Positions 11,844 through 50,336 of a stretch of DNA of 64,000 nucleotides are shown one piece after another. Numbering within the stretch: the first letter of the stretch is position 1; each line of letters starts with the position of its first letter. A program made the translations under genes and the position numbers. This DNA is from Asparagopsis taxiformis. Its lineage: Eukaryota; Rhodophyta; Florideophyceae; Bonnemaisoniales; Bonnemaisoniaceae. The notes under the pieces were generated by a model. It searched no databases, had not been told where the DNA came from, and saw nothing but the letters and a program-made list of their open reading frames with translations. The stretch is from positions 16,732 to 80,731 of the forward strand of contig JALQPE010000164.1 of the NCBI GenBank assembly GCA_030407315.1. Direction: 5' to 3'.

Positions 11844-11934
11844 TGGAGGATGGTTGAAATTAGTGCAGTAAATGTGACGTTGACTAGAAGGCTTATCATG
11901 TAGTACATTATCAATAGAGTGCTGCGATTTAGAT

Positions 11935-13051: not shown

Positions 13052-13184
13052 CGTCTGTGTTTTCGGAAGTGGACGCGGACGTCCAGTCTCTCTAGTACGG
13101 GTCCTAGTCGGCCCCGAGATTTACTAGAACAAATGAACGTCCGCGTCCAAAAAAAAATAAAAATTTTTTGGATGCGGACGTCCA
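13052..13184. repeat. Left terminal inverted repeat and subterminal block of copy B
   Basis: It shares the first ~36 bp with the right end at about 34272-34324 and ~130 bp with the right end of copy A (51531-51664). It contains GGACGTCC and an inverted GGACGCGGACGT ... ACGTCCGCGTCC pair around an A-rich spacer. Confidence 0.8.
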
Positions 13185-13399
13185 CTTTCTCTAGTACATA
13201 TGGCGGAATACTAGGGCCCGACATCCACTTTCTCTAGTACATATGGCGGAATACTAGGGCCCGACATCCACTTTCTCTAGTACATATGGCGGAATACTAG
13301 GACCCGACATCCACTTTCTCTAGTACATATGGCGGAATACTAGGACCCGACATCCACTTTCTCTAGTACATATGGCGGAATACTAGGACCCGACATCCA
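13185..13399. repeat. Subterminal minisatellite, five 43-bp units
   Basis: Five consecutive 43-bp units, each with CTAGTACATATGGCGGAAT and a GACATCCA end, lie next to the terminal repeat. Copy A has only two units (51445-51530). Direct subterminal repeats are typical transposase-binding regions in CACTA-type elements; that role is inferred here. Confidence 0.9.
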
Positions 13400-15655
13400 G
13401 TATACAATATATCAGCGAAAACCGGGAGGGAAGAAATTACAGCGGATGGTAAATTCAGGGCCCATATCGGACCGTATTTTATTCTCTCATTTAGGAAACT
13501 GCTCGTATACAATACGTCTCTCTAGAATAGGGAATACATATCTGGTCAGAATAGGAAATAAATACCCGGTTAGAATAGGAAATAAATACCCGGTTAGAAT
13601 AGGAAATACGTATCCAGCCAGAATACAAAATACCTGTCAGCATATCGTCGATCACCCATCTCCCTCACTATCGCGTTCTCCCTACCATCCGAACGCCATG
13701 CACCACCATCCGCACATACTGCAAGAACCCTCACGACCTAGATTACAAAAATCGCTCCTTCCCAATACCATCCCCGCTTTCCTCGACACCACCCCAGCCC
13801 ATTAAATCATCAAGACATCAAACACGAACATGGTCAGCAAAATCTTACACCACTTGAAACGCACTCTCACTTCTATCGTATGCCCCAAAATATACACATA
13901 CCAGAAACACCTCACAGCTTCATTCCCCATCTTCCTACATCCCTTCTTCACTCTCCTTCAGTCCTGCCGTTCCTGCTTCACCACTCCTGCATCACATACA
14001 CAACATCAACCCCAACAGTCAGATTCAAAAGCAACGCTTACCACGACAGATATCCTAGAAACTCCCTTACTTACCTCTCATCCATCCTACACACAATACA
14101 AACCATGATCCAAAAACCTTGCAATGAATAATCAAAGTCAGCAGTCCATATCTTCGCAAAACAAGTCTTGGCGCTCAATGAAACTTACCTTCTGTCATCA
14201 ACATTCCTGCATCATCTACACAACATCGGAATCAACCACAACAGTCAGACTCAAAACCAACCTTCCATCACAGCATACTTTCAAAACTCGCACACTTACC
14301 TTCGCTCCACACAATACACACCATGACTCAATAGGCTTCCAATGAAAAATATCGCATCAACGGAAATAGTCAGACTCAAAACCAACCTTCCCTCGCTGCT
14401 TACTTTCAAAACTCGCACACTTACCTTACCCGTTCCATCCTGCACACAATAAAAACCATAAGTCACGTAATCGTGTAGCCAAGAAAAGTAGTCAGCATTC
14501 CGCATCTTCGCACAACCGGTCTGGGCGCCCAATGTGACTTACCTTCCGTCATCACTATTCCTCCATCACCTACGCAACATCGGATTCAATCGCAACAGTC
14601 AGATTGAAAACCAACGTTTCCCTCGCTACATACCCTGAGAACTCGCAAATGTACCTCTCATCCATCCTACACACAATACAAACCATGATCCAAAAACCTT
14701 GCAATTAACAATAATCATAGTCAGCAGTCCATATCTTCGCAAAGCACATCTTGGCACTCAATGAAACTTACCTTCCGTCATCAACATTCCTGCATCATCT
14801 ACACAACATCGGAATCAACCACAACAGTCAGACTCAAAATCAACCTTCCCTCACAGCATACTTTCAAAACTTCACGTACCTCTCTTCCATCCTCCGCTCA
14901 ATACACACCATCAGTCAACAGGCTTCCCATGAAAATATCGCATCAACGGAAATAGTCAGACTCAAAACCCACGCTTCCCTCAACGCATACCCTCGAGGGT
15001 AGAGGATGGAACGAAGGTACGTGCGCGAATCTTGATCAAGATTCGCGCACGTACAAAGCAAAGTCGGTCAAAGAAGATCAGTCGGTGATGAGGGCGGAGT
15101 GGAGCCTGCGGCGTCGACCGGACAGCTTTCTGCGTCCGCTTAAGTCTTGCTGTGCATACTCGAAATCATCGCCGGCAGTGAGATTGAGTATGGCCCAAGC
15201 CATGGTCTCTGATTCCCCGAACAAAGAGATCCGGATCGAGAACAACGAATATAAACATATAATCATATATATGAGAATCCATTTGCTTTCCTTACATGAT
15301 CTGTGGCATATCCGCTGTAAAGCACATTCAGATTCCACGAAGTTTGGAAATAAAAAAGTTTATTATTACAAATGAATTAATTGAAAATTCATGTCCCAGG
15401 CAGTCGTTCGTCCTTCCATGCACACGTTGCCAGCACGCAATGTGATGTAACAGTTGGAAATGATTGAACTCTCGGTTAAATTCCACCGTTGGGATGTCAG
15501 CTGGAGTGAGCACAAAACTACTACCCACAAAAACTACGAACGAACACGTTACATTCCAAGTCTCGAAAGCACCACAAAAATAAAATTGGTCGCATCTGGA
15601 CGGCACAGTCTCCCCTGTTCAGCTCGCAATCCTCCCTTTTGCGTCAAAACTCGAC
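13400..15655. other. Left subterminal and promoter region of copy B, no supported gene
   Basis: The plus strand is poor in G and rich in C and A. It contains diverged tandem repeats at about 14100-14960 (landmark AGTCAGCAGTCCATATCTTCG at 14139 and 14717, a variant at 14489), the 38-bp palindrome at 15017, and ~600 bp before the transposase ATG. Short reading frames here follow the repeat and are not convincing. Copy A has a shortened equivalent at 50337-51444 and 36271-36859. Confidence 0.55.
15017..15054. repeat. Perfect 38-bp palindrome
   Basis: GTACGTGCGCGAATCTTGA is followed directly by its reverse complement. Copy A has only one arm (around 50370-50390), so copy B has a small fold-back duplication. 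Confidence 0.9.
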
Positions 15656-18600
15656 ATGGAATGCAAGTATGAAGGGTGCTTCTACTACTGCGTAGATGCT
15701 TATGCGCTCGCGCTGCATGAGCGAACGTGTCGCTACCGTTTCAACCCCTCTCCCCAACATTTCAACAACGCTCGTGTCCCTGCCGTCACCCATGAGCCTG
15801 CTCGAAACGGCGACCATGATTCCCCGCAACCCAGCTCCCCAGACCCAGAATCTGGTCGTGCTTCCTCCAGCGACTCACCCTGTGACGCTTCACTGCCACC
15901 AACCTCAACCCCCTCCCGCGCAGACCTCCTCGTGCAATCCCTCGCCGCCAGTCTCACAACCCTCGAGTACAAGGCCGGCGCTGGCCGCGTGAGCGAAGTC
16001 ATCACCATCCTACAAGACCCCGCATTCTCCCTAGAAAAGTTCAACAGCGCCGTTCGCACCGTAGAAGAATGTCGCCACGTTACCGCTTCCATGGTCGAAA
16101 CACATTTCCGCACCGAAGGTTACAAGAGCCACATCATTCCAGACAAAACTGGTAAGTACTCGGCACAGCTGTACCTCCGCGACCCAGTCGACATGCTCCG
16201 CAGGCAGTTAGCACTGGCTAACGACCAAAATACTCTCTTCCACCCCTCCCCACAGACCGCCCCAGACGGCACCGCAATATTTTCTCATCCCCTACACACA
16301 GAATTCGCGAAAACGCTGCACCAGGTTACTAGACAGCGCGTGCAGCTCTCGGAAGATCCACAGGTCGTATGGGCAGAGGAAACTGATCCCACACCTTCCT
16401 CCTTTGCCGGCCTCCTCCAAGTGTACTCCGACAAGAGCAGCACAAGCCTCAAGAGCTCCGCAATCGTCGCATACCCCATACACGTCACACTGCTCAACTT
16501 CTCCGCCCCCCTCCGTCGCCACTGCATCCGTACCGGCCTCACCATCGTCGGGTATCTTCCGTACATTGTTAACCCTTCGTCCAACGCCTTGTTCGGTGAT
16601 GAAATGCCGACAACCTCTAGTTCTGCTAGTCGCGCTCGCAAAATTGATATTCTTCATAAAGCACTCGAAAAAGTGTTTTCGTCCCTATCCACCGCGTTCT
16701 CTTCCGGGTTCCCCTGCACAGACTCCACTGCAACTGCCCGCCAATGCTTTCCCATCCTAGCCAATTATTGCTGCGACTTTCCAGAGGCCAAAGAGCTGTC
16801 ATGCACTCGCAACAGCACTACCACCACACATCCCTGCCACCGCTGCTACATCCCCGCCACTCAACTTGAATCCACCGCGCCACACCAGCCCCGCTCCCTC
16901 GATGATACACGCTCTGCACGCCAAGAGAGCGCTCAGGAGCATACAACTGCTCCGCTCGAAGCTCTCTCCCTCCTCGAACAACACTCTGTCCTCGAATCGA
17001 CCGCTCTTTTACCCACCAACAGTCCCCTAGACCCCTACAACATTTTCTCCTTCGAGCCTCTGCACAATCTCCACCTCGGCATCTCAAAGCTCATCAAACA
17101 GTGCATTGTCCACCGCCTCAGCTCCCCAGACCTCACCACCACTGCCTCCCATTCCGGGACACCTCGCACCTTCAAGAAGGTGAAAAAATCCATCCTCGCC
17201 GGCTCAAACAGCATTCTGTCCGCTATCGAACGCGACTACTACATCACCGGTCTTCATGTCGACTTCTCCAAGGGTGAGAAGGGCACCAATTTGAACGGCC
17301 TCTTCACGGAGGACGGCATACGCGGCATGCTCGCAGCCAAAGACTATCACCATGTCGACATGGTGTTCCCTTTCATCGCAGCATTCATTGACACATGCTG
17401 TGACGAAGTAGATACAGCCCCCCTCACTTCCATCTGCACGCAATACTCTGACCTCGTCGCATGGGTCATGAAACGCGGTCGCATCAAGCACTGGACTGCC
17501 GCCGAACTAGAAAGCCTCCAGAACTCCATTTCCTATTTCAAACAATCAATGCTCTCCACCCTCGGCCCATTCCACACCACAGGTCTCAAAACTTTCAAGT
17601 TCCATCTTCTAGACCATCTTCCCGGTGACTTGCAGAGATATGGCGCCCTGGAACACATTGATGCAGGCCCCTACGAACACTCGCATCTTCTGTTCAAACA
17701 GAGTTATAGGAAAACCTCTCGAAGGCGCTCCACAGCCATGGAAGAGACTATTCGCCACATGGAATTCTCCTTGGCCACTCCAACTGGTCATACCCCATCG
17801 AACACATTGGGAAACGCACGCATGATATCGCCCACAGACGGTGCAGTACTCGTTCGCGACGGATTCACCGTTGCACTGCACGACTTTGCCTCCCTGCTGC
17901 CCGATGCAACCCTCCTCGTTGCAGATATCGACGGACAGCCCGATCCTGCCACTCTTTTGCCGCTGCACAACTCCTCGTTCCCGTCTGGCACCATAACGCT
18001 ATTCCAGCAACTCGGTGACACAGCTGCACAAGCGTTCCTCACCCTCGCTAGACTGCGCGCCACGGCAGAAGGCCCTCCAATACATGACATGGACATTTCC
18101 GTCACCGTGGTAAAGTCCGCCTACGTCATGGGAGGGTACGTCCCAGATGCCGACGACTTTGACCCGCACAGTGGCATGCTTCGCCCCACAAACGTGTCGA
18201 GGCACAAGCAGCAGCGCGTCTTTGCAACTTCATCGTTCGGCCCCGCAAAGAGATCGCAGTACTCCTTTGTCGTCATCTCCGGAACTGCCGATGACTACAG
18301 AACCATATGGGTAGGGCGCGTCCTGGCACTGGTACGCCTGCAGTCTCCAAACCTGTTTCAACCTGTAGAACTCGCTTTCGTTCAGTATATGACCTGCTTT
18401 GCCCCAAAAACCGCTGTGGAAAAATCACTTGGGTGCATTTGTTTAAAGTGGTCCACATGGGACCCGGACAACGGATCCGTTGACAGCAATGACACTGCAT
18501 CCCACAGTGCAGGTGGTCCTTGGTTTGACCTCATTCCTGCATCTACTATATCTGGCACCGTGCACATCGTACGAAGTAACTTTCCAGTCAAGCCATTTAC

Positions 18601-18694
18601 GAAACAAATGCACTGGTCGGACCACCGTTTCTATCTCAACCGCTTCTACACCAACACTGATTACCAGTTCACAGATGATAATGAAGAAGAATAA
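15656..18694 (+). CDS. Plavaka-like (EnSpm/CACTA superfamily) transposase, intact
   Basis: A single uninterrupted 1012-codon frame. It opens with a C2HC-like zinc finger (C3, C8, H21, C25), then a Ser/Pro-rich linker (~30-90). The segment around residue 260-310 (AYPIHVTLLNFS ... GLTIVGYLPYI) resembles the YLTIGN-type and LLGYLP blocks of Plavaka transposases. FPILANYCCDFPEA and a downstream C-x2-C (CHRCY), then a GISKLIKQ block, match the later conserved regions. I cannot assign the catalytic acidic triad with confidence. It should bind the element ends and catalyse excision/insertion in the nucleus. It is the only intact transposase in the window. AATAAA overlaps its stop codon. Confidence 0.8.
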   Translation: MECKYEGCFYYCVDAYALALHERTCRYRFNPSPQHFNNARVPAVTHEPARNGDHDSPQPSSPDPESGRASSSDSPCDASLPPTSTPSRADLLVQSLAASLTTLEYKAGAGRVSEVITILQDPAFSLEKFNSAVRTVEECRHVTASMVETHFRTEGYKSHIIPDKTGKYSAQLYLRDPVDMLRRQLALANDQNTLFHPSPQTAPDGTAIFSHPLHTEFAKTLHQVTRQRVQLSEDPQVVWAEETDPTPSSFAGLLQVYSDKSSTSLKSSAIVAYPIHVTLLNFSAPLRRHCIRTGLTIVGYLPYIVNPSSNALFGDEMPTTSSSASRARKIDILHKALEKVFSSLSTAFSSGFPCTDSTATARQCFPILANYCCDFPEAKELSCTRNSTTTTHPCHRCYIPATQLESTAPHQPRSLDDTRSARQESAQEHTTAPLEALSLLEQHSVLESTALLPTNSPLDPYNIFSFEPLHNLHLGISKLIKQCIVHRLSSPDLTTTASHSGTPRTFKKVKKSILAGSNSILSAIERDYYITGLHVDFSKGEKGTNLNGLFTEDGIRGMLAAKDYHHVDMVFPFIAAFIDTCCDEVDTAPLTSICTQYSDLVAWVMKRGRIKHWTAAELESLQNSISYFKQSMLSTLGPFHTTGLKTFKFHLLDHLPGDLQRYGALEHIDAGPYEHSHLLFKQSYRKTSRRRSTAMEETIRHMEFSLATPTGHTPSNTLGNARMISPTDGAVLVRDGFTVALHDFASLLPDATLLVADIDGQPDPATLLPLHNSSFPSGTITLFQQLGDTAAQAFLTLARLRATAEGPPIHDMDISVTVVKSAYVMGGYVPDADDFDPHSGMLRPTNVSRHKQQRVFATSSFGPAKRSQYSFVVISGTADDYRTIWVGRVLALVRLQSPNLFQPVELAFVQYMTCFAPKTAVEKSLGCICLKWSTWDPDNGSVDSNDTASHSAGGPWFDLIPASTISGTVHIVRSNFPVKPFTKQMHWSDHRFYLNRFYTNTDYQFTDDNEEE

Positions 18695-18771
18695 ATCTAA
18701 ATCGCAGCACTCTATTGATAATGTACTACATGATAAACCTTCTAGTCAACGTCACATTTACTGCACTAATT

Positions 18772-21057
18772 TCAACCATCCTCCATTACGCCAAAACCGT
18801 TATCAGCAGTGGCTGCATGGCGCCGCTCCATGCCCCCATACTGTGGGGCATTGATTTCGACATTCAGGTTTGCACTCAGGTGTCCAGCATATGGGTCAAC
18901 GACGAAAAGTTCTGCGCCAATTAGTCCTTGCGCAATCACACAATCCATTACAGCACCGAGGTTTGACGTAATATGCGATTGAATCCAATCCTCGGACACT
19001 AGAACAAGTGATGAGCAGCGGTTTACATCATCAACGACATGAACAATTCCAGACCCCTCTCCGCTTTGCCACACTTCAACAGCCTCTCTCGTCACAGTAC
19101 GGCTTGCAAACACATGCCGTGACTGTGCACTAGTCCGCTGTTCGCTCTCGACAACGTCCGTTTCTTCCCTTGCTTGCGAGCCTTGGAGACAAGACATGCA
19201 GTACACCACCATACCAACTAATTGCTGAAAAGCTACCCCCACATATTGACTGTACCGCCTTGTAAACTCCTTCTGCCGTGCACCTCCTTTCCCCTTCGGT
19301 TCATCCAAACACTCCACAGTAGTCACTAGCCAAGCATCCAGGCGCGCCAGCGTTAGTATGCTCGTCTCTATGTCCATTACTTGTTCTGGTCGTATCGAAT
19401 AACCCCTGAAGATGTCCAGCACATTCACAGCTACTCGGTTGTTAAACCATGCATCACCATTCACTTCCATTTCGAAGCTGTCAGGAACCAAGCCTTTGCT
19501 GTATCGCAGCTCTGAGAACGGTGCCGTTCGCCACCTCCCCATATCCAAATCACCGTTACTTTCCCGTTTCAAAAGCTTCTCAGACGCTTCGCGCTTTTGT
19601 TCCTCTCGCTCGTCCATCTCAGCTCGCGTCGTCAGCATCGTGCATCTAGACATTAATTTCGTGTACCCCAGCGAACCGAACAATCTGTCCCTCGCATTAC
19701 GCTTCCGTGCACTCATCACGTCGGACAGTTTCTGCGTCACCTTCACTTTCAATTCCTTGCTCCCCGCCACAGCCTCTTGACAGCACACACGCTGCTCCTC
19801 ATCGGAAAACACATCACACCACGGACTTTGACGCAGTACGTGTCGCACCAAGTCATTCAGCAGATCACTCTCGTCCCTGTACGAAGGTGTATACCACTGC
19901 AGATTCTTGATGATATAGCCCGGAGGGGTAGCAATATATCCTACACCGTTTTCGCTCCAAAGTGTCCCTTCTACCGGCTCTACCTCGATGGTACGTCCAG
20001 TCCAACGTCTCTGCGTTTGTTCCGCTATAGGGTCCAGCTCCATAGTCTCGTTCTTGCACCACTTTGTCAGGTTTTCCTCAACCGCCCTAAGAACTCCAAG
20101 GTATTTCACAGGAATGGCTTTCTGTATTTTCGACTTACCGCCACCGTGATCACTGATTCTACCTGTTCTCGCAATTGCAGTAAGGCTGGCATTTTCCGCC
20201 TGCAGAGTCTTCACCTTAGCCTCCAACGCAACTATCTCCGTGGTGAGCGCCTTGTTTGCTATGTCCTGGCTAAACACTTTTTTTTCCAGCTCCGCGATCT
20301 TCTTCTTCTGCGCATTGATGCGACTCGCCATTAAATCGATGGATTCCGGCGGATGCAACCTCTCTGCCCTCACCGTCCCCCCATCTCCCACGCTATCGGG
20401 ATTATGATGTCCTCCATCGGCAATAGCCTGACGTCGCGGGGGCGTTACGCGCATATTTGGCACCAATGACAGTCTGTTGTGACGAGGCCCGCACTCCGGC
20501 TGCTCTCTCCCCTCAGTACCACCTGACCGCCGATGATAGTTGGCATCCTGTGAACGTTGCTCAGAAACAACATCCCTTGCCGCTATCCTCGGGTCCCTGA
20601 CTGCATTACCTGCTGGGGCTGATGTACTCGGCATAGTTGGCGCAGTGGGGGTCACAGCCTCCAGTGTCTCGCGAACCCCCGGCTGGGACTCCGTCTGCAG
20701 CACCTCCGCATCTGCCAACCCGGGAGGAACTACCTTTGCCATAGCACTCTGCCGCAATTCCAACATGTTTTGAGCCACTATCATGTCATCATCATGATGT
20801 TCACTGTCCCTGCGAGCACGCTTGCCTCGGTCAAGCCCCATCTCTCTCCGCGCCGTTCCTCCTTCCTCACTTTCTCGCTGCGGATCCCCAGTTCTGCGCC
20901 GGTCCGTCTTGCGACTACCGGACCGCGGTTCAATGCTGCCGGTAGGCCCAGACCGCTTCTTCGCACGGGATTGTCGGGCACTCGATACAGCAGCTGCTGA
21001 CCGGGTTTTCTGGAGGCCCGGAGGCTTTGGAGCTTTCTTCGCAATACGCGGCGGCAT
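18772..21057 (-). CDS. Coiled-coil protein of giant transposon, copy B (intact)
   Basis: A continuous 761-codon frame, unlike copy A. Residues 1-220 are basic and disordered (many Arg, Ser, Pro, Gly). Residues ~235-290 have heptad spacing of hydrophobics (RINAQKKKIAELEKK onward) typical of a coiled coil. The rest is a globular region with a second charged helix (EMDEREEQKREASEKLLKRE). I find no catalytic motif and no family I recognise. It lies 77 bp from the convergent transposase gene and downstream of the methyltransferase-SET gene on the same strand. Conservation in both copies argues that it is an element function, perhaps a DNA-bridging or transposase-accessory protein (inference). Confidence 0.75.
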   Translation of the reverse strand: MPPRIAKKAPKPPGLQKTRSAAAVSSARQSRAKKRSGPTGSIEPRSGSRKTDRRRTGDPQRESEEGGTARREMGLDRGKRARRDSEHHDDDMIVAQNMLELRQSAMAKVVPPGLADAEVLQTESQPGVRETLEAVTPTAPTMPSTSAPAGNAVRDPRIAARDVVSEQRSQDANYHRRSGGTEGREQPECGPRHNRLSLVPNMRVTPPRRQAIADGGHHNPDSVGDGGTVRAERLHPPESIDLMASRINAQKKKIAELEKKVFSQDIANKALTTEIVALEAKVKTLQAENASLTAIARTGRISDHGGGKSKIQKAIPVKYLGVLRAVEENLTKWCKNETMELDPIAEQTQRRWTGRTIEVEPVEGTLWSENGVGYIATPPGYIIKNLQWYTPSYRDESDLLNDLVRHVLRQSPWCDVFSDEEQRVCCQEAVAGSKELKVKVTQKLSDVMSARKRNARDRLFGSLGYTKLMSRCTMLTTRAEMDEREEQKREASEKLLKRESNGDLDMGRWRTAPFSELRYSKGLVPDSFEMEVNGDAWFNNRVAVNVLDIFRGYSIRPEQVMDIETSILTLARLDAWLVTTVECLDEPKGKGGARQKEFTRRYSQYVGVAFQQLVGMVVYCMSCLQGSQAREETDVVESEQRTSAQSRHVFASRTVTREAVEVWQSGEGSGIVHVVDDVNRCSSLVLVSEDWIQSHITSNLGAVMDCVIAQGLIGAELFVVDPYAGHLSANLNVEINAPQYGGMERRHAATADNGFGVMEDG

Positions 21058-21717
21058 AATGAAGCTTTCCCGGAAGCGATGGAACGATTGAGTTGCACGA
21101 GATACAAAAAAGATTGCTGTATAGTGTCGGTAACCACAACGGTCTGCGATGAACGTTCAGGTCAGGTCAAGTACCGGAGAATACGCCAACAGCCCAGATT
21201 GTATACGGTAGGCAGTCATCAACAGTATTTAATGAGGTACAATTACAGCTGTCGAGCTAGGCCGCGAGCACCCCTATGTCCGGAAGACGTCCTGATTTGA
21301 ATTAAAATTTGGGCTATTCTCAAAAACATGCACATGTGAACATGTTTTTGAGATGGGGGTGTGCCGTACGGCACAATCGACCCGCTGAAATCGATGTTTT
21401 TTGCAATATTTTTTTCTGCCCTGAATTGTAGAATTTCTGGGCTGGACAGCAATGCAACTGAGCTGGACATCCACCGGGCGTCCATTTCAACTTGGTCGTG
21501 TATTTTGCATCTGCACGCATAACAGCATCCAAGCAGTCAGGTTCACTGCTCGGACGAAGTGCACCTAGAGTGTGAACGATTGGTTTTTGACAGGCGAGTA
21601 CTGCTCAATAGGTTTCACCCTGGACTAATGGTGGCTGGACATGCTGCATTATATGATATACTTCAACTCTGGAACGTAGCTTTATTTGTAGTCGAAATGA
21701 AAACATCTTTCGTGACC
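21058..21717. other. Intergenic region with hairpin repeat, copy B
   Basis: This mirrors 8917-9573. It contains the repeat at 21293-21488 and a reverse-strand AATAAA (21681-21686) after the SET gene. No gene is supported. Confidence 0.5.
21293..21488 (+). repeat. Palindromic intergenic repeat, copy 6
   Basis: The hairpin is at 21319-21352. It lies between the SET gene end and the coiled-coil gene start, at the same position as copy 5 in element A. Confidence 0.8.
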
Positions 21718-24700
21718 CTAATTCCATGCTCTAAACGCTGTCCCATAATGAACGTAGAGCTCCTGCCCCGGACGGATATCGCGGATTGCACGTACTACAA
21801 TGATCTTCGGATTTTCTAGGTCCTTCGCCTTGAGCTTCTTCCCCGTCGAACCGCTGCTGTAGTTCTCGACAAACTCGACGTTGGCCATCCGCCTGGTGTC
21901 TTCCGCCGGAGTGTCCTCACCTCGCAAATACCGCGGGTCGTTGATGAACTGCGCCGAACAGAACGGAGCCGGAACAATCCAAATTGGATGCTCGATGTTT
22001 TCGTCGTCCTCCGCTGTTGCATACAGCTTGATGGCATACATCAAGAATGTTTCCTTCGTTATCGCCATGTGACCCTCTCCGTACGCGAACCTCATCGACT
22101 CCTTGCTCATATCAGAGTACACAACAGTTCCGTAGTATGCACATACTTCGTCGCCAACATTAAATGTCTGTTCAGCGAAGAGCCCTCTTCCTGCATTTGG
22201 ATGCTTAATCAGCGATGGTCGAACGCTCAATTTTTTCGCAACACAATCGTGTGCCCGCATCACGCGAGGGTTTTCAGTTTGCAACCAGCGGCGCAGGGAA
22301 GGTGGCCAATAATGTACCGGTTTTTCCATGTGCTCGTGCGACGCAATCGACTCTGGGCACAGCTGCCAGAGGTACTGCCGAATATATTTCGGGAACCTCT
22401 GGTACAGGGGAAGGCCAGGTGGGGGTTCGATGATCCTGCGTTCCCTCTGCGTACGCATCGTGACAGAGGGGGACGCCAAGAACTTCTCAGCACTCTGTTT
22501 CGCTTCTGTCGTGACCCTCATGTCAGTGTTGTTTGAAAGAATTACACGTGACATGACTGCACACAGCTTTGGAAGCGATCGTGCCACACACAATTTGTCC
22601 ATGTCACTGCCGACGAAAACACGGTGCTCAGGCAAGCTCATAGCTGCTTTTCCCGTTGCGAAAGTGCCAGAGAATGGATCGACAACAATATCACCAGGCT
22701 GTGAATGCTGGCTGATCAACTCCATCATGAGAGCGACGCTCTTCTGCTCTGCACGAACTCTGACCGTAGCACCGGTTGTGCTCCTTGTTCGCCACACCAT
22801 CTCATTCGAATCGATGGCGGGCATATTGATGGTGACGTTGCACCACGCCGGGTACGTGCCGTCCATGTATCCGTGGTTCCTATAGGCCACCATCTCGCTT
22901 CCAGTCTTGAACGGAACACCTCGCTTCCAGAAGTGGATAGCGACCTCTGCCATGTTCATGCGTTGGTACCTCTTCCGCCCCGGCATTTGATAGAGGTGCC
23001 CAGGTAGTCGGACAAACAACAGAGGTACCTCGTCAACGAAGAAAACTGAATTCCGAACGACGTCCCTCCTCCTCGTCCTCCTCCTCCTCCTCATCCGCAC
23101 TTTCTTCGCCACTGTGCTGCGATGCTTCGGAGTCCGAATTCATGGACGTAACCTCTTCTTCATCCGACCCGTCATCACTGGCAGCAGCATCGGTTGGGCC
23201 TTCTGACTGCGGTCCTTTGTACGTTTCCAAGTAATGGAACCATTCGTAGAACTGCAAAACGGAGCAGAACACGATGCCGTGGCCACCGGGGCGCAACAGC
23301 TCGTCAAACACTTCGATGCTAGCCTGCATATCTTCTGCAGTTAGCCTGTCGTACGAAGAGTTGGAATCGTTCCTCTTACGACGAACATTGTAGGGCGGAT
23401 CTGTCAGAATGAGCTGAACGTTGCCCGTGATGGGCACGTGTTCTCGGCTCTCGTCGGCACTGACCAAATCTTCGAAAGGGACGTCGTACACCCGGCAATA
23501 CTGACTCATTTTCGAAAGAAAGTCCTTTGCGAGAGCCTGCCCTTCACTTTCCTGCTCTTCTGTCGCATGGGGTGACGGTGACGGGGGAGACGGCCCTTGG
23601 GCAGTAAGACTGGTCCTCCCAGGTCCAAGTTGAAGCCTGGTTGTGTGTCTTGTCGACGGAACCAAACCTCTCCCTCCTGTGTTGCGACGAGTGGGAGTGT
23701 CATCAACCGGCTTGGGGACCTTTTCTGCGTCCGCGGCTTGTGGTGCCGGGCGGAGGACAGCCATAACGTCTTCGTCGAGGGTGTCAAAGTACGCTGGCAG
23801 CTTGTCCGGATTTCCGCTTGACAAGTATATTTCCAGCGCCCCCCAGCGGTCGGACTCCGGCCAGGTGTACAGGTCCGGGTTGACGATAAGAAACTGCAAC
23901 CGGTCGAAGAACTTCCTCACAAGGTCCCTAAATGCACTGTGCTGCGCACTGGTTCTTGTCTCTACTTTTCCACCATATCCATCAGGATGAGATAGGGGAG
24001 CTTTGTCGTGGTAGAGATCTAGCTTCTGCTCCATCGGTGCGAATAGACCTTCATCGAGCACGTCAAACCAATGCTCACTGCTGTCGAAAATGATGTACGG
24101 CGCCATCAACTCTTCGAAGCTGGAAAACTTTGCGGCGAAGGCCACATCGGTCCAAGCATGGTATAAAACTTGAACCACGTAACAAGCTCGATTAGTGCTT
24201 TTCCGATGGGCTGGGACGCGTGCGGCTTCGTTCCCCTCTTCGGCCGCGTCGCCTATTCGGCGACGCGGCAGGTTCTTGTTGTGATTTCGGATGATAGACA
24301 ACGCTTGGAAATACATCAATACCTCGAACGTTTCCGGTGGAGCAAGAACGAAGGCGCTTGGTTCCCCGCGCTGCGGCGCCTGTAGTGGCGAAGGAAGCAT
24401 GTTACATCCAATAAGGAAGGTCTGCGGCACGATCCCAGAAAGGATGCAGTGCTCAACCCATTGCCCGATACGCTCATCCTGTCTTGAAAACTCGGCAATC
24501 GGTAATGCCAGACGAACAATCTGCTTGGCTCGCTCAACGTTCATCTCTGCCATGACGATTTCGGCAACATCCGCCTCGACTCCAGCATTCTTCGAACGAC
24601 CGCTGAAGGCCATGCTGAGTCGACCTTGCAGCGCCAGAAATTGTTCTTCCGTGCCCTGCGCAACCCAAGCGCCAAGGTCCGCGTATGTGAAACCTCCCGG

Positions 24701-24919: not shown

Positions 24920-25262
24920 AATGGAATGAGTGGAAATTCGGTACAGGATGGCGACCGCTCGGCGAGACAGTCAAATTTGACGACGTATCTCGTGACGTTT
25001 GCACTCTTTCGTGAGGAACACTGGTTGATATCGAACGGAACAGAGTATACGGGTACACAGCACTGGAAAGGTCTTGAAACCCGTAACCGGTGTAGGTAAT
25101 AAGTTGTGACGGATACGTGGTAGAGAAAAATTTTAAAAAGATTGTGATTCCCTGTCTTTGAGGGTTGTACTGCACGGCCGCCATGGCGGCTGTGACTGCA
25201 GTCACATAGGTTGTCACAGGTGCATCACGCTTACCAGGTGAGCGACATCCGGACGGCCACTG

Positions 25263-25449
25263 GACATGGGGATGTCCAGCTCAGATGCATTGCTGGCCAG
25301 ACCAGAAATTCTACAATTTCGGGCAGAAAAAATATTGCAAAAAACATCGATTTCGGCGGTCGATTGTGCCGTACGGCACATCCCCATCTCAAAAACATGT
25401 TCACATGTGCATGTTTTTGAGAATAGCCCAAATTTTAATTCAAATCAGG
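25263..25449 (-). repeat. Palindromic intergenic repeat, copy 7
   Basis: The hairpin is at 25388-25421 and GTGCCGTACGGCAC is intact. It is nearest to the methyltransferase-SET start. Confidence 0.8.
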
Positions 25450-25963
25450 ATGCAGATATTCGTCTTCTAGCATTGTCAGAACACATTCGTATAACCACAT
25501 TTGGAGAACCTGAGCCCAGAGCTATCGGTTTTGGCGGGAGCTAAGCCATATCTCATATAATCAGTAACTACTTCCCGCCAGCTGAGTGGTGGAACCCCTG
25601 CTATTTCTACCAACGAGACATACGGGGTGTCAACTCGGCAATCGTATATGATTTGGGTGCTAAATTTATTCAAGAGACGAATGGGCTTCGAAAAGGAGCC
25701 CAACAACGTCTTCTTGTGATCCATGGGTATAGGACTACTCTATTCTTCTCCAGGCTTCCACCATAGCCTCCTCCACCACCTCCGTTAATGGATCGAATAT
25801 CCGAACCGCACCTCAACATGCTTTTCTTCTCATCCATGGGTACTGACATCTGCGAGATGTGAGTCACATGTTCTCCAGGCTTGCACCGTAGCCGCCTCCT
25901 CCGCCTCCGTTAATGGAAACAATATCCGAACCGGACCTGAACATGTTTTTCTTCTCATCCATG

Positions 25964-26006
25964 GGTATTGACATCTCACATGTTCAACATGTGAGATGTC
26001 AGTACC
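25964..26006. repeat. 43-bp hairpin in copy B
   Basis: GGTATTGACATCTCACATGTT pairs with the downstream AACATGTGAGATGTCAGTACC with one mismatch; it matches the hairpin at 3351-3393. Confidence 0.75.
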
Positions 26007-26539
26007 GGACAAGTTCTCCAGGCTTCCTCCGTAGCCACCTCCTCCACCTCCGTCTGTGGGAATCAACACAACATCACCACTGCGTCTTACCTCACATCCA
26101 CATCTCTCCGGGATGAAAACGGACGGACGACATAGGGTTTGTAGACGTTTAGAATCTTGTTAGAAAAAAGTAAACGAAAGAGAAGTTCTCTTTCATTGAA
26201 TGATATCTCGTCCCTGTCGCAATATGTTCCATTTTCATTTTCTCGGGTTGCACACCCATCATGGGTGATCAAGGCCTGGATCGAACCCTCCGAGGGTCTT
26301 CGATGGATAGGACAGATAGTGGAAGGCTTTTAAGCCTGTGACCAAGCGGCTATTGATTGGTTGGAGGAAGGAAATTACAGAGGAAATATAGCTGAGTACG
26401 GTGCTCGCGATAGCTGTTAGGTTAAAGTCAAATATGTTTTTCGATTATTTTTCGTACGGAAATGGCTTCGAAAAGACGATGGAGAGCATCGTCATGAAGG
26501 AGAGGATTCTTTCTGCTTGTTAGAATCGGTTTAGAGGAG

Positions 26540-26709
26540 ATAGCTAATGCATTACTGGCCAGCCCAGAACTTGTAGAATTTCGGGCAGGAAAAAAATTGC
26601 AAAATTTTATCGATTTAGGCGGTCGAAAGTGCCGTACGGCACACCCCCATCTCAAAAACATGTTCACATGTGCATGTTTTTGAGAATAGCCCAAATTTTA
26701 ATTCAAATC
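26540..26709 (-). repeat. Palindromic intergenic repeat, copy 8
   Basis: The hairpin is at 26651-26684. It is a truncated form that lacks the GGACGTCC end. Confidence 0.75.
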
Positions 26710-26902
26710 AAGGTGTCTAATTTGGCCAGAACGGCCCCAGGCACCGGCCGCCGCCCCGAGTGGGGTTGTCACTGGCTTCTGTAAGCACCAACTGTAAGGC
26801 TAAATGGCGTCTGACGAAGGGTCAATTTCAGGCTCAATACGCCAGGGACAGGTCTTGGTCCTTGTTCCATCATGGTCCCGCCTCACTCTCTCACGACCAA
26901 CC

Positions 26903-27099
26903 TGAAATGGACGTCCGGTGGATGTCCAGCTCGATTGCACTGCTGGCCAGCCCAGAAATTCTAAAATTTCGGGCACAAAAAAATTGTAAAAAATCAACGA
27001 TTTGGGCGGGTCGACTGTGCCGTACGGCACACCCCCATCTCAAAAACATGTTCACATGTGCATGTTTTTGAGAATAGCCCAAATTTTAATTCAAATCAG
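26903..27099 (-). repeat. Palindromic intergenic repeat, copy 9
   Basis: The hairpin is at 27039-27072. It is full length, with the GGACGTCC/GGACATCC pair. Confidence 0.8.
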
Positions 27100-27407
27100 G
27101 GCGTCTAATTTGGCCACAACGGCCCCAGGAACCGGAGCCGCCGCCCCGAGCGGGGTCATCACTGCCTTCTGTAAGCACTAACTGTGAGGCTAAATGGCGC
27201 CGAAAGATGGGTCGATTCCAGGCTTCAAGCCTAAGTTATGCTAGGTACGCATCTTCTTCCGTGTTTCATAATGGTCCCGCCTTACTCCCTCAACACAAAC
27301 ACTACCCAACCATCACGTTACTCATATTCCGTGCACTTTATATTAGTAGTGATCCCGCCTGCTTAGTTGCTGCAATGCGTGGATGAAGGCAGCACACGAT
27401 CAACCTG

Positions 27408-27602
27408 AAATGGACGTCCGGTGGATGTCCAGCTCAGATGCACTGCTGGCCAGCCCAGAAATTCTAAAATTTCGGGCACAAAAAATCTTGCAAAAATCAA
27501 CGATTTGGGCGGGTCGATTGTGCCGTACGGCACAACCCCATCTCAAAAACATGTTCACATGTGCATGTTTTTGAGAATAGCCCAAATCTTAACTCAAATC
27601 AG
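27408..27602 (-). repeat. Palindromic intergenic repeat, copy 10
   Basis: The hairpin is at 27542-27575, about 375 bp upstream of the ParB-like ATG. Confidence 0.8.
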
Positions 27603-27950
27603 GGTGTTCCCCGGATAAAGGGGTGCTCGCAGCCGCCCCAAAAGCCGCCTAGCTTGACAGCTGTAATTTTAACACATTACACATCAAGGACACTGCCTGC
27701 TTCACGCCACCTCGTCAGGTTTCGAGAGCCCGACTCGGGCCCGTTCCGAACGGACACTCACATCTCGATTGCCTGTCTTGCATTCCAGCGGTCACGATAG
27801 GTGTGTACCTAACAAAATTTCGGTTGTATTGTGTTATTATTTCCAGCGATTGGCGTTCACGACCATTCTTCAAGCAACGTGAAACCTACCATCCACATCA
27901 CTCCAATACGTCAACGTCAACCATCTCTTTTACTTTCCAACTCAACAATC

Positions 27951-30900
27951 ATGGCGGATACGCATTTCAGCAGTTTGTTTTCAACGGTTTGCGGCGATCA
28001 AGTGAGCGCGTCAGCGGAGTCGCGCGGACTCAAGCGCGGCGTCGATGTCAATTTGTTTGCGGACGTGGACGGTGCGGCTGTGCATATTGGGACGGCTTCG
28101 GTGAGCACTGCTGGTGGCGATGTTGGCCTTCCGCGCACGCTGCACAACCACCAGCTTCCGGAAACCGACGAGGCGGACTATATCGTCGTGCGCAACATTG
28201 CGACTAAGGACAAGTTCAAGGACCTCCCGTTCCCGTACATGTTTGATGGCGCCGAGGGACCGCCGGAGACGATGGGTGGAGCATACGCCGCGGCGTTTTA
28301 CCCTTGGGATACTCGGATGATGCGCCCCGCTGCGGAGGATGGCCCTAGCGACATTCGTACCCCTGCTGCAGCGTCAAACTTCAACGCAGCGACGAACCAG
28401 GCCAGCTCGGGACGGATGCCCAGTACCGGTCCAGCAGGCGAAATCACTGGTTCGGGGGGTACGAAGCATCCAGCACGCTCCATTCCGGTTTCGGGAGGCA
28501 CGAAGCGCCCTGCTCGCTCTGCAAGACCCTCCAGTGGAGGCACGAAGCATCCAGCACGCTCCGTCCCGGTTCGGGAGGCACGAAGCACCCTGCTCGCTCC
28601 AACGTCACCGAAGCTACTACGCAGGACGTAACCGAAGTGGACGACGAACCGGAGGTGGCGGAAAGCATTCGTGAGCAGCAGGGGACGCAAATTACGGTGC
28701 CCAAGTTTGTGACGTCGGATTACGTCGGAGAAGGAGCGACTGTGCTGGTGAGGCAGCTAGTGGAACCGGCCGTGACCCTTCGGGATGTGAAAGAAGACCA
28801 CGTGGAGGACCTGCGCAACAATATGTTGGCTGTGGGGTATGTGAGCTCTTCGCGTATCACTGTGACGGTGCTGAGGTCGCAGAACACGCATCTGCCCGCC
28901 GACACGCGTCTGTTCCAGAATGGCAAATTCCATGCCAATGCGAACGTGACCGTGATCGACGGACTGCATCGTCTCAATGCTATGCATAGCATTGCCGATG
29001 ACTTCACTCGCCTCACCCGTATGCACAGAACCAAGCTGCCACAGGACGCAAACCGCTTGCGCTGGGTTACTCAGCCTCTGGATGTGTACTACCTTCGCCG
29101 CAAGGACAACAGTGATCTTCAGCCTCATGAGATCATCCACATGAGTGCAGAGTCGAACCATACGACTGGGACGCAACTGACGGAGCGCTCCCTGGTTCGA
29201 ATCTTGTCGTCCATCCAGCAGTTCATCCGTACGATTGCTGTTGCAAATAACGTGGAAAACGCTGGCGACTTGCGTGAGTCTGATGTCATCCGAACATTGT
29301 TCGAGGCGCAGTTCATGGGGATGATGAATTCAACGAACACGGCCCGGCGGTGGACGCGTTTGGCTATAGCAACGCTGAAGCATCCTGTTCTCGACGAAGT
29401 GTTGCGTGAGCTGAACAATTCCGAGCGCCGCAACGAGATTGGGATAACGCACCTGGACCACAAGATAGTGCGCGAGTTGCTGGAAGAAAACTTTGTCTTC
29501 GTCTTGCGTGGTCTTTCGGAGTACTTGAACCCTGCTCATGGTGGACGTCCGGATGGACGCTTTGACGTGAACGACTTCTATACATACGTCCGTCGCGTGA
29601 CTGCAATAGCAAATTCTCTGTACGCTGCGTATGGGCGCCCAAAGAGTATTATGCGCAAGTCATTTCTGAGCACAGAGATGGCAATTGGGTCGGTTAAGCA
29701 GCCGAAGGAGTTGCAATGGCATCTCACCAATGCCATTGCAATGTATAGAGGGGACGACCGGAGCAGTGAGGTTCGAATGCGACGGAGAACCACGCGTTTA
29801 CAGGATTTGGAAACGAACTTGAAAGAGTTTTTCAATCCGACATTGAAGAAGAAGACTAAGGCTCGACGCAAACGCCGCCCTTCTGCTGCCAATGTGAGAC
29901 TCACTCACAAGAAGCAGCGGAATGTCGAACATGAGCCTGCTTCGCATGGCATCCGCCGCCGTTCACAGCGACTTCGCTCGACGGGGAGCACACGCCTCGA
30001 GGAAGAAGAGCCGGTTGTGGTACAACAATCCGCCGGGGAAGAAGAGCAGGCCGTTGTTGATAAACCCACCGATCAACAACAAGCCACTGCTTCCGGTGAT
30101 GAGGTTGACGAAGACTCCGCCCGTTCCCCCGATTCTGCCGTTGAGATTGTCCCCCAAGATAACCAACGTGCTGGTGCGACTCCCTCCAACCAAGAATCTG
30201 TCCATAACGTTTCGGACGAGGAAGAAAACAACAGTGCAGATGAGGGCCATGTCAAAAGCAAGGGGGTCCGCGAAGTGACAATTACACTCACTGTTCCGGA
30301 AGGAGTCGAAGTCGATGAAGACGGTTACATCGTTCGTGACTCTCCTTCTGAACACGACCTCCTGTTCGACGACCGGATGCCATCTCTTCCCGACGATTTC
30401 GAAGTCAAAGACCGAGCCGAAGGGCATCATCTGGCGCAGCGTCCCGCGGACGTCATCGCATCGGTGAGGGTTGGCTGTCTGCCCCCGATTGAGCTCAGGT
30501 TGTTATTGGAGAGTGTGGAAATCGATGAGGAGGGCAGAGAGGTGAGGTATTTGAAGCAAGTGGCGATGGACCCTGTGTTTGAGGGGCTGCATATTCCGGA
30601 ACAACATCGGGCTCGTCATCTTGTTTTCGAGATCGACACCATCTATCCGATGTTTTTCGCAGCGTGGAAGATGGCTGCCAAGGCGATGTGTGAGCCTACA
30701 TCGACGTTTCTACCCTCGAGGCTGGACTTCGCCCAGGTTGCGCGAATGTCTACAAGCTGGAAGGATTCGTATGAGGCCGGCACTGGTATGGCGTACTTCC
30801 ACAATTGCCGAACGGAAATCAACGAGCGAGGGTATACGGTGATGCACAATTTCGCGGATGTAAGCTACCTCGATGCGTCGGACAAGTTCCCATTTGACTT

Positions 30901-31042
30901 GGGTCTCATGGAAGAAATTCCTATCCAGGAATTGTTTCGGTACTTCTTGGGAACATGGGAGGGGGAGGAGGTGCTCAAGGACCCTGGGAACCGGCAGCTG
31001 TGGAGTCCCATTGTCAATACAGGGGACGATGAAACCAGATGA
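27951..31042 (+). CDS. ParB/sulfiredoxin-like protein, copy B (one frameshift at ~28570)
   Basis: The ATG at 27951 (MADTHFSS) gives ~1030 codons. After four GGTKHPARS-type repeats the frame breaks at ~28570, where GGTTCGGG has one T fewer than the other repeat units; the remainder is open to 31042. The main domain contains VIDGLHRLNAM and a following helix-rich segment with SAESNHTTG, consistent with a ParB/Srx-type domain. A basic/acidic disordered region (~620-780) follows, then a ~220-residue C-terminal domain I do not recognise. Its end overlaps the dioxygenase start by 14 nt. Family members bind DNA, hydrolyse CTP or act as nucleases; the role here is inferred. Confidence 0.6.
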
Positions 31043-31919
31043 GAAGAACCGGAATGAGGGGAGGGCTCGCTTCACGTCTACGCGCCACTGCCTGGTTGAC
31101 TATGCCGAGAACGATGAGACGCATATCGACCGGTTCAAGTTTGTGACGCGGCGAGCCCTGCTGGATGTGTGGTTGGGAATCCTTGTCCGGCTGATAGGGC
31201 TGGAGGAGTGCGGTTTACCGGGAGAAAAACTTGTCATGCCGGCATCTGGGGGACGGTTTTTGATAACGGGAAAGGGGTGTCCTCGGCAGGTCCCACACAA
31301 TGATTTCCCTGTTCCTCCTCGCGACCGCAAAGATCAACTTCCGGGTTACTTTGTTATTGCCAACGGAGATGACCCATTCCCTATCTGGGTGTGTCCAGGG
31401 TCCCACAAGTACGTCTTTTCCAAAGCGCTGGAATTAGATATGTACGCCAAGACGATGAAGCTGAAGAAGGTAATCGTTCCGCCACGTTCAGTCTTCATCG
31501 GTCACGGCCATGTACAACATGCCGGGGCAGGGCATGTCGACAGAGTTGTGTCACACACGACAACGAGGTATCACACGTATTTCAGGAATGCGTCGTATCC
31601 GATTCCCGACAATGTTTCGTTTGGTTTCATCAGGCGGTTGGGATTCGAAGAAGAAGTAATCGCCAATGCTCCGCGCCGATCTGCCAGGCAAAGTCAACCG
31701 GCACCTGTCAATGTTCGCCACAAGACAGTTGTTCCCATCCCGGTCAAGAAAGATCGTAGGCCGAAGACAGGGCAGCTCGGAATGATGCGGATGAAGACGG
31801 CAGAACGCAAGCCAGAACGCAAGCCTATATCCTACACAATTACTGATGTCCCGTTCATGCCTATTCTGCCGGGAGATCCTGATTATGATGAGGAAGAAGA
31901 ACAATTTTCCGACGGCTAG
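31029..31919 (+). CDS. 2-oxoglutarate/Fe(II)-dependent dioxygenase (PhyH-like double-stranded beta-helix)
   Basis: Counting from the ATG at 31029 (296 codons), an HxD metal motif is at H90-N-D92 (QVPHNDF), a PGSHK turn at 123-127, a distal His at H164 (HVQHAGAG) and a 2-oxoglutarate-type Arg at R180 (TTTRYHTYF). This spacing and the PGSH turn fit phytanoyl-CoA-dioxygenase-like enzymes. TET/JBP DNA dioxygenases use the same catalytic set, so hydroxylation of modified DNA bases is possible but unproven. The start overlaps the ParB-like stop (ATGA ... TGA, 14 nt); the two may be one polypeptide with a shifted frame. The tail is basic and may bind nucleic acid. Copy A's equivalent lies outside the window. 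Confidence 0.65.
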   Translation: MKPDEKNRNEGRARFTSTRHCLVDYAENDETHIDRFKFVTRRALLDVWLGILVRLIGLEECGLPGEKLVMPASGGRFLITGKGCPRQVPHNDFPVPPRDRKDQLPGYFVIANGDDPFPIWVCPGSHKYVFSKALELDMYAKTMKLKKVIVPPRSVFIGHGHVQHAGAGHVDRVVSHTTTRYHTYFRNASYPIPDNVSFGFIRRLGFEEEVIANAPRRSARQSQPAPVNVRHKTVVPIPVKKDRRPKTGQLGMMRMKTAERKPERKPISYTITDVPFMPILPGDPDYDEEEEQFSDG

Positions 31920-32199
31920 ACAGCTTAACAACAACTACTTTAGGAAACAATTATCGAGAATATAATCATCTCCTTTATCACTTTCAATCTATGAACCTAC
32001 TATAATGTACTTCCGTTCCATGCTTTCAAACTAGATTGTCCATTCCCTCGTGGGTTGGAGCATGATTTCCAGGACGATTCCCTCACATCTCTAGACTCGA
32101 TGGTCTATGCTAGAAATAGCAGAACAATTGGGTTTGTACGTGCTTCATCGCCTACTTGCTTCCGGTAATGTGTGCACGTGCACGATACACGATCAACCT

Positions 32200-32392
32200 G
32201 AAATGGACGTCCGGTGGATGTCCAGCTCAGATGCATTGCTGGCCAGCCCAGAAATTGTAATATTTCGGGCAGAAAAAATATTGCAAAAAACATCGATTTC
32301 GGCGGTCGATTGTGCCGTACGGCACACCCCCATCTCAAAAACATGTTCACATGTGCATGTTTTTGAGAATAGCCCAAATTTTAATTCAAATT
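32200..32392 (-). repeat. Palindromic intergenic repeat, copy 11
   Basis: The hairpin is at 32334-32367, downstream of the dioxygenase gene. Confidence 0.8.
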
Positions 32393-32587
32393 AAGGTGTC
32401 TAATTTGGCCACAACGGCCCCAGGAACCGACCGCCGGCCCCGATCGGGGCTATCACTGGCTTCTATAAGCACCAACTGTAAGGCAAAACCACGTCTCACG
32501 ACGGGTCGATTTCAGGCTCAATACGCCAGGGACAGGTCTTGGTCCTTGTTTCATCATGGTCCCGCCTCACTCTCTCACGACCAACCT

Positions 32588-32660
32588 GAAATGGACGTCC
32601 GGTGGATGTCCAGCTCGATTGCACTGCTGGCCAGCCCAGAAATTCTAAAATTTCCGAAAA
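32588..32660 (-). repeat. Truncated palindromic repeat, copy 12
   Basis: Only the GGACGTCC/GGACATCC end and GGCCAGCCCAGAAATTC remain; the hairpin and the 14-bp palindrome are missing. Confidence 0.7.
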
Positions 32661-34271
32661 ATCAATTTGGTGGCCCAGCATCTGCTGTGCCGAAAATTCC
32701 CGCAGTCACTTCTGATATACTATATCGTAGTAGTAGTAGTCTAGACGTGTTTCGCACTTGTACGCATCAGGGAAGGCGTCATGGAAGGTTGAGACTACGC
32801 TACTTGTGTACCGCGTCGTCTGAAATAGCGAGTAGTGTTTGTTGTATAGTTGTGGAGTATGCGTCTAGTGGTTTGTAAAGCTTGCAGAACGGGATAGGGA
32901 TGTGGGTGGCCCTATTTTATGAATACATGAATACCAATATTCAAGGGTGACAAAGCGGAAAGTCATAGGCTCGTACATGTTTGAGATTGCATAGTAGAGA
33001 AAATATTTACATCGAAATTTACATGGAGCTGATGGAGGTATTAAGGATGAGGTATGAGAGGAATAAAATTCTTCTGTGGTATGAAGATGTGTTCTGTGGG
33101 GGGATGGAATCTTGGGATGGTACAGGGGGAGGTGGAAATGTACGGAGTGCGGGTTTAGAATGGAGTGTGATTCGGAGAGGAGTGCCGACAAGCATATTAT
33201 GGGGATTGGGGAGACGCTGCGGGGTGTTGGGGTAGTGAGGGCGGAGGAGGTGTTTAGGTGGGACCGTAGGAGGGTGCGGTTGAAGTCGCCGAGAGGAGGG
33301 GGTTTTAGGAAAGTGAGGAGAAAGAAGGGGAGGGGGTGGCGTCTGTTCTGGCTGTGGTGAGTGGGGATGTGATGGAGAAGAAGGGGGTTATTGTACTTGG
33401 GGAGGGAGGGGAGTGGGAGGAAGGGTGCGAAGTGGGGGGTTGATATGTGTTTCAGAGCGGGGAGGTTTCTGGGGAGACGGCGGGGGAGCGGGAGCGTGGG
33501 CCGGTGGGGGTGGTGTATACGGTATCGAAGATGCGGATGGCGTGGGGGCATGGAGCAGCTGAGGGAGGGAGGGGTGTAGCAGGTCGGGTACGGGATGGGG
33601 AGTGAGAGGTTTTGGAAGAGTAAGCTGCAGGGGAAGTTTGTGGAGAGGGCGAAGGAGAGGGGTTGAAGGTAGAGGAGAGAGGGTATTGAAGAACAATACG
33701 TTTCAAAGGTGATGGGGAAGACCATGGTCGAGGAGATAGGGGTTTTTTTGCCCTATTCTGAGGTATTATGAGGACTGGTTATACGAAATCTGTACGGTAG
33801 AGCAGAAAAGTAGGTATCATACCTCATTCCATGATGGAATGGAGGTGTGCACCGTGGAAGCGGGGATAGGTAGCTGAAAATGCGTGCTAGAGTGGTATTG
33901 GGGGTGTTTGAGGTACAGTACGGGGGAGGTGAGCACCAACTGGAAGGGGGTGTGAGCGAGAGGATGAAAAAATTAAAGACGAAATTGGAGTCGACCGACA
34001 AGGAAAAATAGAGTGGTCGCCGTGATGGATGCGGACATCCATGTCGAGCACGGCGGCAGAAATTTCTGGGCTCGAAATTTTTGAATTTCTGAACCGGCGC
34101 CCGTCCTAGGTGGACATAGACATGGCGGAAGTCCTTCCCGAGGGGGACATCCGTGGTACTAGAAACAATGGATGTCGCCCTACTAATACTAGACGTACTA
34201 GACCGCATGGACGTCCGGTTCTAGGCGGACATCCAAAAATACTGGAGAACATGGACGTCCGCCTAGTAATA

Positions 34272-34324
34272 CTAGGTGTACTAGAGGTTGTGGACGTCCG
34301 CGTCCATTTCCGAGAACACAGACG
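34272..34324. repeat. Right terminal inverted repeat of copy B
   Basis: It ends in CACAGACG and matches 13052-13100 in reverse, with a few differences (for example TTCTCGG against TTTTCGG). Confidence 0.8.
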
Positions 34325-34346
34325 CGCCATCCCGGCTGGTCCTACA

Positions 34347-37519: not shown

Positions 37520-37545
37520 CTGGTCTCTCGACCTAGAAGTTGCTA
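37520..37545 (+). other. Putative primer-binding site
   Basis: TGGTCTCTCGACC starts one base after the LTR and begins with TGG, the complement of a tRNA CCA end. I cannot name the tRNA. Confidence 0.5.
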
Positions 37546-37618
37546 CGAGCATAACGACAACCAACGAGGTTGAGCTCTTTTACGTTAACGAAAAGCTACG
37601 TGCTACAGACGACGGTCT

Positions 37619-50331: not shown

Positions 50332-50336
50332 ACCGC

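Follow-up and report, generated by a model that had tools for sequence, protein, structure and literature searches.

A very large Plavaka-type transposon in the red alga Asparagopsis taxiformis with a predicted DNA methyltransferase-SET fusion and a putative ParB-like-dioxygenase fusion as cargo

RESULTS

The window analyzed here is a 64,000-nucleotide stretch of the genome of the red alga Asparagopsis taxiformis (assembly GCA_030407315.1, contig JALQPE010000164.1, positions 16,732 to 80,731 of the forward strand). A search of the genome for phycobilisome-linker domains (PF00427) gave 13 above the cut-off, with matches in 1 of 14 controls (Synechococcus), which points to an alga with phycobilisomes and most simply to a red one. 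It holds a complete element of 21,273 bp, designated copy B (13052 to 34324, plus strand), which is a very large, recently active and recently amplified cut-and-paste transposon of the Plavaka type. Copy B carries a transposase gene, open reading frame 2 (ORF2) and two cargo genes that each join two domains: a predicted N6/N4-type amino-DNA methyltransferase with a predicted SET lysine methyltransferase, and a ParB-like domain with a putative dioxygenase. A first-pass annotation of this DNA had described a Plavaka-type transposon mobilized as a unit with methyltransferase, SET, ParB-motif and dioxygenase-motif cargo, and this description is borne out.

Copy B is delimited by its exact ends, by an empty site in a second copy and by unrelated flanks in other copies. 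The inverted ends proposed for this interval were confirmed at exact positions, as 34-bp terminal inverted repeats at 13052 to 13085 (left, plus strand) and 34291 to 34324 (right, minus strand) that pair at 32 of 34 bases. The termini read CGTCTGTG..CACAGACG in all complete ends read, and the ends contain paired GGACGTCC motifs plus a subterminal array of 43-bp repeats, which at the left end of copy B occupies 13134 to 13442 (plus strand; repeat family D5 in the self-comparison). Further copies that were read carry this terminus at their left or right end, next to unrelated flanks.

The second copy, copy A, is a minus-strand element whose left end is at 51664; it runs out of the window at position 1. 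It is 99.1% identical to copy B along an 8.9-kb stretch, and copy B is inserted into its transposase gene. The self-comparison assigns to copy A the segments 1 to 13051 and 34347 to 51664 (both minus strand) on either side of copy B. When the flanks are compared with the uninterrupted sequence of copy B itself, copy A halts at 13051 and continues at 34347, in agreement with the earlier proposal that B entered A as a single unit. The right junction contains 22 bp of filler (34325 to 34346) that are not in the empty site and occur only once in the window, and the empty-site comparison revealed no target duplication at this insertion. Among 12 elements for which both flanks were read, the 2-bp flanks are identical in 6 (chance P of 4e-5) and differ in 6, including copy B.

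The transposase (15656 to 18694, plus strand) is a protein of 1012 amino acids (aa) that matches PF18759, the family of Plavaka transposases (CMC clan), with an E value of 3.8e-24 and a score of 86 bits (cut-off, 26.3 bits). Its frame is uninterrupted in copy B, as the first reading of the sequence had indicated, and at all 45 of the genome places scored. ORF2 (18772 to 21057, minus strand; 761 aa) separates the transposase gene from the methyltransferase-SET gene; it contains a coiled-coil stretch and gave weak coiled-coil matches only.

The methyltransferase-SET gene (21718 to 24919, minus strand) is present in copy B as two overlapping frames (23033 to 24919 and 21718 to 23112), and forms a single frame of 1067 aa in an intact copy from contig C127. 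The protein of the C127 copy matches PF01555 (E value of 3e-15, residues 501 to 776) and PF00856 (E value of 9.8e-7, better than the cut-off), and is therefore predicted to be an N6/N4-type amino-DNA methyltransferase joined to a SET lysine methyltransferase. Ten relatives were found in the database among the 8000 best-sharing candidates, which were the ones scored. One is 99% identical and nine are 26 to 33% identical, and both Pfam domains are found in 6 of the 10. In the alignment of 11 sequences, the SET-type residues (Y-Y/F-G, NDxRY and Rx[AEP]N) are conserved in all or almost all, as are the SET-type HxxAxxG motif, with one exception that reads HxxARAG, and methyltransferase motif I (VVD type). 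The DPPY motif is present in 7 of the 11. A viral origin of this gene was considered and rejected: scanning viral contigs with the alignment retrieved 59 loci, all confined to residues 616 to 825 of 1067, which cover part of the methyltransferase and never the SET domain.

The second fusion gene (27951 to 31919, plus strand; start inferred by aligning L025 to the window) is split into two overlapping frames in copy B and is a single frame of 1318 aa in the copy from C690. In its dioxygenase half, residues H242, D244, H316 and R332 (numbering of P0022) are identical in all eight aligned sequences; we take this HxD...H...R set to be the iron triad and downstream arginine of 2-oxoglutarate/Fe(II) dioxygenases. 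The other half contains a DGxHR core, which reads DGLHR, DGVHR and DGSHR in three aligned proteins and DGHHR in L112, and which we assume to be a DNA-binding motif of the ParB/DGQHR type. Two long relatives, P0020 and P0021, were found for the whole fusion, and five proteins, including a near-identical one, were retrieved with a profile built from the dioxygenase half. Both halves are joined in P0020, P0021 and L112, and P0026 comprises the dioxygenase half plus part of the region before it. L112 (WTKN01000141.1), on which a possible prokaryotic origin of the dioxygenase would rest, is the single locus retrieved in a scan of prokaryote genomes, with an open frame of 1063 aa; its contig of 3.4 kb is filed under a Moorena cyanobacterial metagenome bin and is possibly stray eukaryotic DNA. 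Scans of viral contigs with alignments of the fusion and of the dioxygenase gave no locus, and a viral origin was likewise set aside for this gene.

Full frames were counted at the best-scoring places in the genome. A methyltransferase-SET frame of at least 1060 codons is present at 52 of 91 scored places, and a stop-free ParB-dioxygenase frame of 1300 codons or more at 37 of 56; each domain pair is one gene in many copies. The four domains of the accessory set described in the first-pass annotation are thus present, and the four separate genes are replaced by two fusions plus ORF2.

Modules of approximately 213 bp, identified by self-comparison, separate these genes. One lies between ORF2 and the methyltransferase-SET gene (21260 to 21500), several lie between the two fusion genes (25270 to 27607), and the module recurs 3' of the dioxygenase gene (32188 to 32654). 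Both copies have such modules between their genes, in either orientation (21260 to 32654 in B and 2184 to 9371 in A). In C50 and C100 the methyltransferase-SET segment is inverted between such modules, and a 16.4-kb element in C2860 is without the ParB-dioxygenase gene. These inversions and this gene loss between modules suggest that the modules may act as recombination points.

The abundance of the element was estimated by searching the genome (141.5 Mb, 3156 contigs) with 44-bp patterns for the genes, allowing up to 3 mismatches, and a 34-bp pattern for the ends, allowing up to 2. This retrieved 974 transposase, 947 SET and 896 dioxygenase sites, together with 2734 ends. The reversed control patterns gave 0 matches for the ends, transposase, SET and dioxygenase alike, and a count of 0 against 2734 for the ends excludes chance. 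The near-equal gene counts show that the cargo accompanies the transposase at approximately 1:1 and is standard equipment of the element. Spacing was compared for all 100 transposase, 76 of 100 SET and 97 of 100 dioxygenase places listed, all zero-mismatch matches from the first contigs, within the range of contigs covered by the transposase places. Among the first 100 transposase places listed, at least 50 have a SET site 5042 to 5780 bp away on the opposite strand, in the expected orientation, and at least 28 of the 76 SET places compared have a dioxygenase site 6.5 to 13.3 kb away in the expected direction. Where partner sites are missing, the causes seen include contig ends, nested insertions, inverted segments (C50 and C100) and the limited extent of the site lists. 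The possibility that most copies hold only a transposase and that the other genes are stable host genes placed there by accident, raised with the original description, was checked against these data and is ruled out by the near-equal counts and the fixed spacing. Were all gene-bearing copies full length, the element would make up 13 to 15% of the assembly, which is an upper figure because many copies are shortened.

Ten pairs of ends were measured and enclose 10.0 to 27.2 kb. An element of 11.07 kb in C12 (C12:264300-275700, L030-L031) has the same ends and many intergenic modules, and its longest frame is at most 161 aa, making it non-autonomous. Approximately 2.6 kb of this C12 element is unmatched in copy B. 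The A. taxiformis L6 assembly is reported to rest on PacBio reads with short-read polishing and to contain 70.67% repeats (PMC12115072; BioProject PRJNA809757). If the genome searched is this L6 assembly, some of the frame breaks seen in the repeats may be assembly errors.

Selection was estimated as omega from unique substitutions, each counted once, in up to 12 copies, a small sample with shared history. Omega is 0.37 for the methyltransferase-SET gene (20 of 40 changes synonymous, P of 0.0018), 0.32 for the ParB-dioxygenase gene (34 of 65, P of 5.4e-6) and 0.45 for the transposase (12 of 27, P of 0.035). Wrong-frame controls of these three genes gave 1.19 to 2.81, and an unweighted count gave 0.19 to 0.39. 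Both fusions are under purifying selection that is specific to the correct frame, and these values indicate that selection holds the cargo no less firmly than the transposase.

The window has further features. The portion of copy A to the right of B is interrupted near the left end of A by a very young Ty3/Gypsy element (36860 to 50331) with a chromodomain, identical 660-bp long terminal repeats and a 5-bp duplication, ACCGC. The left-end region of copy A also contains a 24-bp tandem repeat (51140 to 51331). Beside copy A, a frame of 408 aa with DDE_Tnp_4 (PF13359; 55092 to 56318) belongs to another transposase family. A WD40-repeat protein of 726 aa (61130 to 63310) is probably encoded by a host gene.

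DISCUSSION

The element resembles several known systems and coincides with none of those located. The TET/JBP Plavaka elements of Agaricomycetes (Kojima 2025, PMC12730594) likewise combine a Plavaka transposase with an oxygenase gene inside one inverted-repeat element. Target duplications of 2 bp or 2 to 3 bp are reported for Plavaka families; here the elements with both flanks read are divided, 6 having identical 2-bp flanks and 6, copy B among them, having none. In contrast, the dioxygenase described here is not recognizable as TET/JBP and is fused to a ParB/DGQHR-motif domain, a methyltransferase-SET fusion and ORF2 are added, and the CGTCTGTG..CACAGACG ends are neither the TGT..ACA of PlavakaA nor the CATCA..TGATG of PlavakaB. 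Harbinger and MuDR elements of Phytophthora also bear a SET histone methyltransferase domain, but these belong to other transposase superfamilies, and the available part of the same paper reports no DNA methyltransferase-SET fusion in them. The Plavaka giant repeats of Amoebidium contain mainly tyrosine recombinases, with neither a methyltransferase-SET nor a ParB-dioxygenase gene described in the part of PMC11244446 available. Retrotransposons of dinoflagellates and charophytes resemble the present element in having their own DNA methyltransferase, but these enzymes are C5-cytosine methyltransferases (PMC5890265). A literature search, with most subscription papers outside its reach, found no element with this gene combination; within the literature searched, "Plavaka" and "SET domain" occur together only in the fungal TET study (PMC12730594).

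With confidence a little short of even, we favor a reading in which the cargo is an element-borne writer and presumed eraser of a mark other than 5-methylcytosine (5mC), by which the element would set its own chromatin state. The methyltransferase-SET protein would write an N-methyl mark on DNA, for which the DPPY motif makes N6-methyladenine (6mA) likelier than N4-methylcytosine (4mC), and would also methylate a histone or another lysine at the same site. The second protein would bind the element or the marked DNA through its ParB-like half and, with its dioxygenase half, oxidize a methyl group, on DNA or protein, so that the mark is reset. Together the two proteins might keep the element transcribable or transposable in a host with no detectable 5mC machinery. 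This proposal builds on genes that lie between shared inverted ends, are linked to one another, are under selection and keep their catalytic motifs, and it adds to them candidate substrates, a presumed direction of effect and a presumed targeting to the element. The absence of a PF00145 match in the host and the CpG observed/expected ratio of 0.97 in copy B also count in its favor.

Several results weigh against this reading. The DPPY motif is altered in 4 of the 11 methyltransferase sequences. P0008 and P0022 (dioxygenase) have no Pfam family up to E values of 5 and 10, the dioxygenase half is unmatched in NCBIfam and PHROGs, no PDB sequence matches the ParB-dioxygenase protein, and segments of three relatives have no Pfam match, ParBc and DGQHR/DndB included, up to an E value of 10, so that the labels "ParB-like" and "dioxygenase" rest on motifs. 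No copy among those read combines two ends with four whole frames, and at least 6 of the 10 end pairs measured are 10 to 12 kb long without a listed cargo or transposase site, which shows that the ends move without the genes. ORF2 shows no purifying selection (omega of 1.03, 4 of 18 changes synonymous, P of 0.61; wrong-frame controls, 0.98 to 1.40; unweighted count, 1.07). The search of the host genome for a C5-cytosine methylase (PF00145), which gave 0 candidates with control matches in 10 of 14, takes no account of introns. Moreover, 5mC is not missing from all red algae: according to a review, C. merolae, a red alga, has a DNMT3 homologue, and methylation in Gracilariopsis changes under stress (PMC9861306).

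It is possible, but rather unlikely, that the element limits itself, with the methyltransferase-SET protein silencing the element's own copies to keep the load tolerable and the ParB-dioxygenase protein lifting the silencing at certain stages. Such a load would fit the approximately 900 to 970 gene copies and their share of the assembly, which would reach 13 to 15% with every copy at full length. There is also a partial precedent in the bdelloid N4CMT, which marks transposons and helps to silence them, working with SETDB1 in a host without C5-methyltransferases (PMC8885841). N4CMT resembles the protein described here as a bacterial-type N6/N4 amino-methyltransferase with a chromatin domain and a SET-enzyme partner in a eukaryote that lacks C5-methyltransferases, but it is a host gene directed against transposons, with SPPY and a chromodomain, whereas here the gene belongs to the transposon, the motif is mostly DPPY and SET is part of the same protein. 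Against self-limitation, selection for self-silencing by transposons is usually weak, and the near-identity and recent spread of the copies mean that any brake has been loose.

Control of transposition is an improbable alternative, in which the DNA mark and the ParB-like protein would direct the transposase to the ends or to a daughter copy, the histone effects being incidental. Hemimethylation guides the transposition of bacterial Tn10 and of maize Ac/Spm, and the paired GGACGTCC motifs, the 43-bp subterminal array and the fusion of a DNA-binding motif domain to a presumed eraser are all consistent with such a role. However, it leaves the SET domain unexplained.

Decidedly improbable is counter-silencing in the sense of TET, where the dioxygenase would remove or oxidize host 5mC, letting the element escape silencing, and the methyltransferase-SET protein would be secondary. 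Such a role has been suggested for Plavaka and KDZ transposons of fungi that bear TET, and TET/JBP Plavaka families exist (PMC12730594); in the present element, the HxD...H...R set of the dioxygenase half is intact. The link to TET/JBP made in the first-pass annotation is nevertheless not supported, as no profile match points to a TET/JBP identity, and with no host C5-cytosine methylase detected by the PF00145 search, there is no evident substrate on which a TET-like enzyme could counter host 5mC. CpG dinucleotides are not depleted in copy B either (observed/expected ratio of 0.97). Passive hitchhiking, in which cargo captured once was amplified along with no function for the element, would fit the broken cargo frames of many copies and the neutral change of ORF2, but is a very remote prospect given the frame-specific purifying selection on both fusions and the occurrence of the same fusions in relatives that are mostly about 30% identical.

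Transposons that have captured a single epigenetic gene, be it TET, SET or a DNA methyltransferase, are already known. If the writer-eraser reading holds, a whole mark-setting system would be owned by a parasite, with a DNA-mark writer that includes a lysine methyltransferase domain and a presumed reader-eraser fusion. We consider it somewhat doubtful, but possible, that this is the first transposon with a complete self-owned circuit independent of 5mC, in which one protein jointly writes a DNA N-methyl and a histone mark and a second recognizes and erases them; with approximately 900 copies per gene, such a mark could be a main one in a red-algal genome. The element would then offer a natural test of the disputed question of whether 6mA or 4mC serves as an epigenetic mark in eukaryotes, here in one without a detected C5-cytosine methylase. 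PacBio reads are deposited for A. taxiformis, and data that bear on the mark may already exist.

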